DNA of 42,892 nt, from contig VMCJ01000153.1 in NCBI GenBank assembly GCA_008081395.1, forward strand, positions 1-42,892. Reading direction: 5' to 3'. Below, one piece after another: positions 7,009 to 41,885 of the stretch (position 1 is the stretch's first letter; every line of letters begins with the position of its first letter). The notes below the pieces were generated by a model. The model was not told where the DNA came from. It ran no database searches and saw only the letters and a program-made list of their open reading frames with translations. The translations under genes were made by a program, and so were the position numbers. The DNA comes from Rhodospirillales bacterium (GTDB lineage: Bacteria; Pseudomonadota; Alphaproteobacteria; Bin95).

Positions 7009-7083
7009 GGCGGGGTAGCTCAGTGGTAGAGCAGGGGAATCATAATCCCTTGGTCGGGGGTTCAAATCCCTCCCTCGCTACCA
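7009..7083 (+). tRNA. tRNA-Met (anticodon CAT), elongator type
   Basis: The 75-base gene folds as a full cloverleaf. The acceptor stem GGCGGGG pairs with CCTCGCT with two G-U pairs; the D arm is GCTC-AGTGGTA-GAGC; the anticodon loop ATCATAA carries CAT at 7041-7043 with T33 before it; the T loop is TTCAAAT; and CCA is encoded at 7081-7083. The sequence is close to the usual alphaproteobacterial elongator tRNA-Met. A tRNA-Ile2 with lysidine at C34 has the same anticodon and cannot be fully excluded, but the overall sequence favours Met. The initiator form is unlikely because its three G-C pairs in the anticodon stem are absent. Confidence 0.93.
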
Positions 7084-14366: not shown

Positions 14367-15500
14367 TCAGACACAGTATGTCTTGAGTGGTGGCAACCCA
14401 TTAAAAGCGACCGAACAATAGGTCGAGGTGTATGCTCCAGCAGATAAAAAGTCCACTGTATCACCTGGCTTAAGATCGTCTGGAAGGTTGTAAGCCGTCT
14501 CTTGATAAAGTACGTCAACTTCATCACAGGTCGGTCCAGCAATAATCACCCTACTGGTATCGCCTTGCCCGTCTTTTGATGTGCGAATTCTATATTTTAT
14601 AGCTTCATCCATGGTCTCAATGAGGCCACCAAATTTACCAACATCAAGATAGACCCAGCGTGGCCCATCTTCCATTTTATGAGACACAAGAACTACTTCA
14701 CTACGGATCATTCCAGCATCTGCGACCAAGCTGCGGCCAGGCTCAATAAGGACTTCAGGGAGACGGTTCCCAAAATGCTTATGCAGTGCTGCAGTCAATG
14801 CAGAAGCATGTTCTTCGTGAGATGCGGCTTCTGTTAAATAATGGCCAGGCAATCCTCCGCCTACATTAAGCAGACGAAGATTCACGCCACGCTCGCGCAA
14901 GCTTGTGAATAGCATTGCTGCCTTACCAACAGCTACATCCCATTCACCTGCATCGCGCTGCTGAGAACCGACGTGAAAAGAGAGACCATATGGATCAAGA
15001 CCCATTTGCCCAGCACTAACCAGCAGTTCTTCTGCCATGGCTAAAGAACAGCCGAACTTGCCTCCCAATGGCCAGTCTGCGGTCTTGGACTTTTCAAAAC
15101 GAAGTCGGCAGTAAACTTTAGCTCCTGGAGCGGCAACTGCTAGTTTCTCAAGTTCACCCTGGCTATCAAATGCAAAAAGGCGAACACCAAGAGCATACGC
15201 CGCAGCTATATCACTCTGCTTCTTTACAGTGTTACCAAAGGAGATACGGCTTGCAGGCGCACCTGCAGCTAGCGCTTCTCGAATTTCATAAATTGACGCT
15301 GTGTCAAAACTAGAACCCATCTCAGCCAGCATACCCATTATTTGAGGTGCTGGGTTGGCTTTCATAGCGTAAAAGATGCGAGCCTGGGGCAGTGAGCGTG
15401 CCAAAGCGAGGTAATTGTCTCTGACCATGTCTAAGTCCATGACAAGGCATGGTGTAGCAGGACGCTGGTCAGCAAGAAATGTTTCTATGCGCGGTGTCAT
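14367..15500 (-). CDS. Ornithine decarboxylase-like, fold type III PLP decarboxylase
   Basis: A 377-residue eukaryotic-type (alanine racemase fold) decarboxylase that makes putrescine from ornithine, or cadaverine from lysine. The PLP lysine is K47 in YAMKANP; FHVGSQ (H176), GGGLPG (214-219) and EPGR (253-256) bind the cofactor phosphate; C325-D326 in GPTCDEVD is the catalytic cysteine pair from the partner subunit. Length and motifs fit ornithine decarboxylase better than the longer diaminopimelate decarboxylase. RBS AGGGA lies 8 bases before the ATG at 15498-15500. A GC-rich structured leader precedes it, as in other alphaproteobacteria where this gene follows the speF RNA motif. Confidence 0.92.
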   Translation of the reverse strand: MTPRIETFLADQRPATPCLVMDLDMVRDNYLALARSLPQARIFYAMKANPAPQIMGMLAEMGSSFDTASIYEIREALAAGAPASRISFGNTVKKQSDIAAAYALGVRLFAFDSQGELEKLAVAAPGAKVYCRLRFEKSKTADWPLGGKFGCSLAMAEELLVSAGQMGLDPYGLSFHVGSQQRDAGEWDVAVGKAAMLFTSLRERGVNLRLLNVGGGLPGHYLTEAASHEEHASALTAALHKHFGNRLPEVLIEPGRSLVADAGMIRSEVVLVSHKMEDGPRWVYLDVGKFGGLIETMDEAIKYRIRTSKDGQGDTSRVIIAGPTCDEVDVLYQETAYNLPDDLKPGDTVDFLSAGAYTSTYCSVAFNGLPPLKTYCV

Positions 15501-15514
15501 AGCAATTTCCCTAA

Positions 15515-15655
15515 AGCAAGAGGTAGAACGACGGACGAGTCGGGCGTGGACCCCGAACCGGCTGCCGCCCCGCCGCCGGTCCCGCGGTGGAGGCGGGATC
15601 CAGCCTGCAAACGCGCTTTGGGGCGTGCGTTTCAGATTAGGGTGCGCGGTATATT
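15515..15655 (-). ncRNA. Structured 5' leader of ornithine decarboxylase, probable speF motif
   Basis: The leader is strikingly GC-rich against the AT-rich neighbourhood. On the minus strand it offers several hairpins: AAACGC/GCGTTT (window 15609-15632), TCCCGC/GCGGGA (15580-15598) and CCGGC/GCCGG (15558-15579); the latter two can be enclosed by a TGGA/TCCA stem (15547-15550 with 15599-15602), giving a three-way junction. A small CGAC/GTCG hairpin follows close to the RBS. The alphaproteobacterial speF motif is a cis-regulatory RNA known from upstream of ornithine decarboxylase genes, so position and structure match; I cannot check the consensus itself. There is no T run, so control would more likely act on translation. 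Boundaries are approximate. Confidence 0.65.
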
Positions 15656-15692
15656 AGGTTCTCTTAAGAAACGCAACTGATTCAGATTATTT

Positions 15693-41821: not shown

Positions 41822-41885
41822 ATCCGTCTCGCCAAAGTTCCAACGGCCTCCCACTGGCTGAAAGGGTTTTTTGGAGTCGTTGAAA

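Follow-up and report, generated by a model that had tools for sequence, protein, structure and literature searches.

A conserved structured leader upstream of an alphaproteobacterial ornithine decarboxylase gene carries hairpin loops of a class also found in speF leaders

In enterobacteria, the ornithine decarboxylase gene speF is preceded by SpeFL, an ornithine-sensing leader peptide; this system relies on translation of the peptide, and the enzyme belongs to a class unrelated to the ornithine decarboxylase (ODC) considered here. For the alphaproteobacterial RNA that is also named speF (RF00518), an orphan regulator since 2005, we know of no ligand or mechanism. This RNA lies before alphaproteobacterial ODC genes orthologous to the one described below (Corbino et al, 2005; PMC1273637), and the speF RNA of A. 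tumefaciens did not bind ornithine, lysine, meso-diaminopimelate, putrescine, cadaverine, or spermidine (PMC1273637). In the RF00518 leaders that we collected, a second element, ar45 (RF02347), usually comes directly before speF. Expression data from Bartonella suggest that speF is transcribed through into the gene, with ar45 forming a short RNA of its own (PMC7717549).

The ODC locus and its relation to speF and ar45

The window that we analysed is a stretch of 42,892 nucleotides from a Rhodospirillales bacterium. Its ODC gene (14367-15500, minus strand) encodes a decarboxylase of the COG0019 (ODC/LysA) fold, assigned from structural relatives and orthologues: lysine/ornithine decarboxylases rank above diaminopimelate decarboxylases among the best solved relatives, and the protein has a GPTCDEVD motif, which we take to be typical of ODC rather than LysA. 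Just as in speF, the leader that we studied (15515-15655, minus strand) precedes a gene for a COG0019 ornithine decarboxylase. As the original prediction stated, it is rich in GC, with 67.4% compared to 48.8% and 47.2% over 1 kb on either side; the GC peak of the window lies here, and only 0.06% of 141-nt stretches are as GC-rich and the richest begins at 15509. Elsewhere in the window there is a tRNA-Met (CAT) gene (7009-7083, plus strand) and a SAM-II riboswitch (SAM_alpha, RF00521; 41720-41799, plus strand, 58 bits), 3' of which an ORF for a PLP-dependent, sulfhydrylase-like protein starts at 41871 and continues past the end of the window.

The leader is flanked by a predicted promoter, TTGCGT-N17-TATACC (15648-15676, minus strand), and by the Shine-Dalgarno region of the ODC gene, GCUUUAGGGAAAUUG (15503-15517, minus strand). 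A sigma-70 scan did not call this promoter; the TTGC..-N17-TATA arrangement is present upstream of ODC in all five congeneric genomes, and it would place the ODC transcription start near 15645.

The leader had been linked to the speF motif from its position. RF00518 was readily found before orthologous ODC genes elsewhere in the alphaproteobacteria, a positive control for the search. The window leader, in contrast, gave no match at the gathering score (37 bits), scanning the leader by itself gave none at E <= 5, and the five congeneric genomes had no match either. Given that RF00518 has no match at any usable threshold or anywhere in the genus, the speF family name is unsupported for this leader. 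The covariance model of ar45 likewise found no match at its gathering score in the leader or the genus, and we rejected membership of both families. When we read the window leader we did not see the conserved central block of speF, ACUGAAGAGGC...UUGCC, which is visible in RF00518 leaders L032 and L035. The window leader is also much shorter than speF leaders and lacks the preceding ar45 with its GGGC-U-run. Within ODC leaders, ar45 has a 5'-terminal position like that of the window element, and its outer GCCC x GGGC stem resembles the helix P1 described below, but its core, CACGUGC...GCAACGA, and its U run are not present in the window leader.

Our survey of ODC leaders yielded separate observations on ar45. 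Of 144 ODC leaders, 58 have an ar45-like core (CACGUGC...GCAACGA or CACGUGCC...GGUAACGAGGU) close to the predicted transcription start, compared to 0.4% of shuffles; examples are L009 (upstream of 2628, minus strand), L051, L054, L062, L070, L071, L104, and L118. Most of the leaders with this core that were scanned have no Rfam match at all, and the ar45/speF 5' element seems far commoner than Rfam shows, though not in the window's genus. Often, a short ORF that has a strong Shine-Dalgarno sequence (GGAGGU-AUG) and begins, for example, with MLVV, MLKVVVGG, or MVA follows 3' of the core, between it and ODC (L054, L055, L072, L077, L098, L104, L115, L118, L129, and others); it could be a leader peptide or, if in frame, the true ODC start.

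Conservation and fold of the leader

ODC orthologues occur in all five genomes of the genus, and three of these carry the leader, each time before ODC: the window's own genome, G002 (L003), and G003 (L004). The conserved structured leader is known so far from only these three related bacteria. In G003, the DNA farther upstream is unrelated to that of the window and the leader is kept, showing that the leader travels with the ODC gene. Against general conservation, G001 and G004 keep the TTGCGT-N17-TATAC arrangement, but their leaders (L005 and L006) are about 45 nt long and the structured element is absent; these two genomes either lost it or never had one. Both retain the promoter and the Shine-Dalgarno region GCUUUAGG (GCUUCAGG in L006).

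The leader sequence is single-copy in the window's genome. A covariance model built from the three leaders gives one strong match per genome, at the ODC leader only, and found no convincing member beyond the genus in 385 genomes of the class, nor in the order; the best other matches (E ~0.003) fall in 1 of the 385 genomes. These results argue against a chance insertion before ODC of a dispersed GC-rich repeat or palindrome without a regulatory role. Such an origin would account for a GC content far above the surroundings and for the two congeneric genomes that lack the element. A repeat, however, should not be confined to a single copy, always at ODC, or begin at the predicted transcription start as this element does; we rejected the idea on copy number and regard it as very unlikely.

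Comparison of the three leaders yields a consensus fold (n = 3 sequences, two of them close relatives) in which P1 (GC-CGCCCC x GGGGCGGC) encloses P2 and P3 in a three-way junction, followed by P4. On the minus strand, the 5' strand of P1, GC(A)CGCCCC, occupies 15620-15628, and its GCCCCAAAGC is invariant in the three leaders; the 3' strand, GGGGCGGC, is at 15564-15571. Within the junction, P2 is a weak 3-bp helix (15606-15616) and P3 an 11-bp hairpin (15575-15604), GCUGG-A-UCCCGC[CUCCACC]GCGGGA-CCGGC, whose loop lies at 15586-15592. P4 is an 8-bp hairpin (15536-15560) with the loop GUCCACG at 15545-15551. Paired cells make up 95.8% of the consensus and 36-51% once the partners are slid. There are three compensatory double changes among the three leaders, two in P3 and one in P4, and P3 also has two one-sided changes. 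The four helices originally predicted from one sequence, including two hairpins inside a three-way junction, agree with this consensus, with the qualification that P2 is weak and that P1 is absent from the single-sequence minimum-energy folds.

Several results count against the fold. The covariation score was matched by 18 of 500 shuffles. Folded singly, all three sequences have a minimum-energy structure in which other pairings take the place of P1, and the junction is therefore a comparative result, not a thermodynamic one; its energy exceeds the minimum by about 10.6 (window), 6.0 (G002), and 2.8 (G003) kcal/mol. Single-sequence folding favors an alternative at P2, the hairpin AAACGC x GCGUUU, which together with an extended 3' stem competes with P1 and has a lower energy in the window and G002. 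Folded alone, the window leader is mildly better than its shuffles (z -1.0 to -2.1), so that its single-sequence stability proves little; the G003 leader alone beats its shuffles with a z of -2.6. P3 and P4 are firm helices, P1 is the least certain among the longer ones, and P2 is weak.

Two NUCCANN hairpin loops

P3 and P4 both carry 7-nt loops of the form NUCCANN, CUCCACC and GUCCACG, and this loop class is shared with speF. RF00518-type leaders have a hairpin 60-120 nt before the start codon whose 7-nt loop reads CUCCANN; P3 is such a hairpin at such a distance. The loop is held on unlike stems, as in L035 (GCGC[CUCCACC]GCGC), L037 (UGCGU[CUCCAAC]ACGCA), and L042 (UCGCGC[CUCCACC]GCGCGA). 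This hairpin falls outside the RF00518 base pairs, and the RF00518 structure shows no hairpin there. It may already have been described in a 2018 reanalysis of speF: as cited in PMC7266159, Greenlee et al (2018) are reported to describe additional conserved parts of the motif.

The strict CUCCANN hairpin is found in 3/3 window-type leaders, 12/14 RF00518 leaders, and 0/125 other ODC leaders, counts in which the leaders are not independent, the motif was noticed by eye beforehand, and the RF00518 set includes two members (L041 and L042) just under the gathering cut-off. The two remaining RF00518 leaders carry near versions of the motif, CCGCAU[UUCCACC]AUGCGG in L130 and one with UCUCCG in L137. 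With a minimum stem of 5 bp, all three window-type leaders have two NUCCANN hairpins, compared to 7 of 14 RF00518 leaders and none of 124 others; 12 of 14 RF00518 leaders have at least one, and 2 of the 124 others have one each. Twin NUCCANN hairpins arose in 0 of 2000 shuffles of each of the three window-type leaders. As a partial blind check, L132 was picked by the hairpin scan alone and later proved RF00518-positive at 56 bits. Thus, the speF identity first proposed for the leader fails as RF00518 membership, and what stands of it is a CUCCANN hairpin shared with true speF leaders and absent from other ODC leaders.

Could the leader be a genuine but highly divergent speF RNA after loss of ar45 and of the conserved block in the centre? 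The gene and position are the same, the CUCCANN hairpin sits 65-110 nt from the start codon, a distance shared with RF00518 leaders, and the first hairpin of RF00518 has a 7-nt loop, uUCCAaa, of the same class as that of P4. But P4 lies 3' of the CUCCANN hairpin, whereas the NUCCANN hairpin of RF00518 lies 5' of it, so the order of the loops is reversed in the window leader (CUCCA, then GUCCA). The missing covariance-model match and central block speak against it too, as do the closer ODC relatives (62-68% identical), which have a different, ar45-core-like leader. We consider this descent possible but doubtful. We read the window leader as a compact variant of the speF leader, either a functional analogue or a reduced relative, and not as an RF00518 member.

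The conserved sequence at the P3 loop, CGC CUC CAC CGC, could also be read as Arg-Leu-His-Arg, in which case a leader peptide would control ODC as SpeFL does in enterobacteria. Indeed, all three leaders, and several speF leaders too, have a frame that reads RLHR. In L032 and L034, however, this frame has no start codon between the preceding stop and the motif, and in G002 it enters ODC without a stop. The stems vary on both strands around a constant loop, which is an RNA pattern and not a codon pattern. With frames inconsistently open and a start codon missing, we rejected the peptide, and such control is extremely improbable; the likeness to SpeFL is that both are ornithine decarboxylase leaders, and the difference is that no leader peptide is supported in the window.

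Probable control of ODC and proposed recognition of the loops

The original prediction had noted the absence of a T run, and a terminator scan found neither a T run nor an intrinsic terminator before ODC, so we rejected a transcription attenuator. Because there is no terminator and the leader extends as far as the start codon, control probably acts on translation or on mRNA stability; for a conserved structured leader of this kind, both are likelier than attenuation, as had been suggested. The same prediction put the leader forward as a candidate sensor of ornithine or polyamines.

At a probability of roughly 60%, we favor the reading that the leader is a cis-acting structured RNA of the ODC mRNA that probably tunes translation initiation, with recognition of its twin loops shifting it between folds. 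The mRNA would have a 5' leader of about 145 nt in which the P1/P2/P3 junction is followed by P4, the Shine-Dalgarno region, and the ODC start codon, and ODC output would be tuned after transcription initiation, most likely through translation initiation. P3 and P4 would offer their two NUCCANN loops to one common recogniser, either an RNA-binding protein or, by pairing of UCC with GGA, a Shine-Dalgarno sequence. Recognition may then move the leader between its two folds, the junction and the rival extended one, altering access to the start site.

An alternative switch would sequester the Shine-Dalgarno sequence: the invariant CCCCAAAGC would pair in the on state with GGGGC, forming P1, and in the off state with the GCUUUAGGG of the Shine-Dalgarno site. 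Eight of nine positions are complementary in the window and G002, a contiguous CCCAAA x UUUGGG is part of the minimum-energy fold in G003, and the leader is predicted to pair the Shine-Dalgarno site in all three sequences. Shuffled leaders, however, pair this site equally often, and GCUUUAGG occurs also in the congeneric genomes without the leader. We rejected the pairing as a significant signal, and a switch of this form seems unlikely. Complementarity of the loops to Shine-Dalgarno sequences is similarly generic: GGAG is present in 9/14 RF00518 leaders and 1/3 window-type leaders but also in 46/125 other leaders, and we rejected it as a specific signal. Since Shine-Dalgarno pairing, UCC-GGA complementarity, and the RLHR peptide gave no specific support, we infer that the twin loops are probably recognised by a protein or by another RNA.

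The E. coli thrS operator, with its two anticodon-arm mimics, is comparable in part. Like the window leader, it has two hairpins with similar 7-nt loops upstream of the start codon, and the RF00518 loop uUCCAaa resembles a CCA anticodon loop. In P3 and P4, in contrast, the pyrimidine after UCCA is unlike an anticodon loop. More speculatively, and we think rather improbably, the twin NUCCANN hairpins may be a portable recognition module of two otherwise dissimilar ODC leaders, speF RF00518 and that of the window, bound by one dimeric regulator or acting as anticodon-arm mimics as in thrS, that senses the polyamine state instead of using a small-molecule pocket.

That a short, divergent leader keeps only the NUCCANN hairpins points to these loops as the functional core. 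With the loops as the core, the search shifts from small-molecule ligands to a protein or base-pairing partner.
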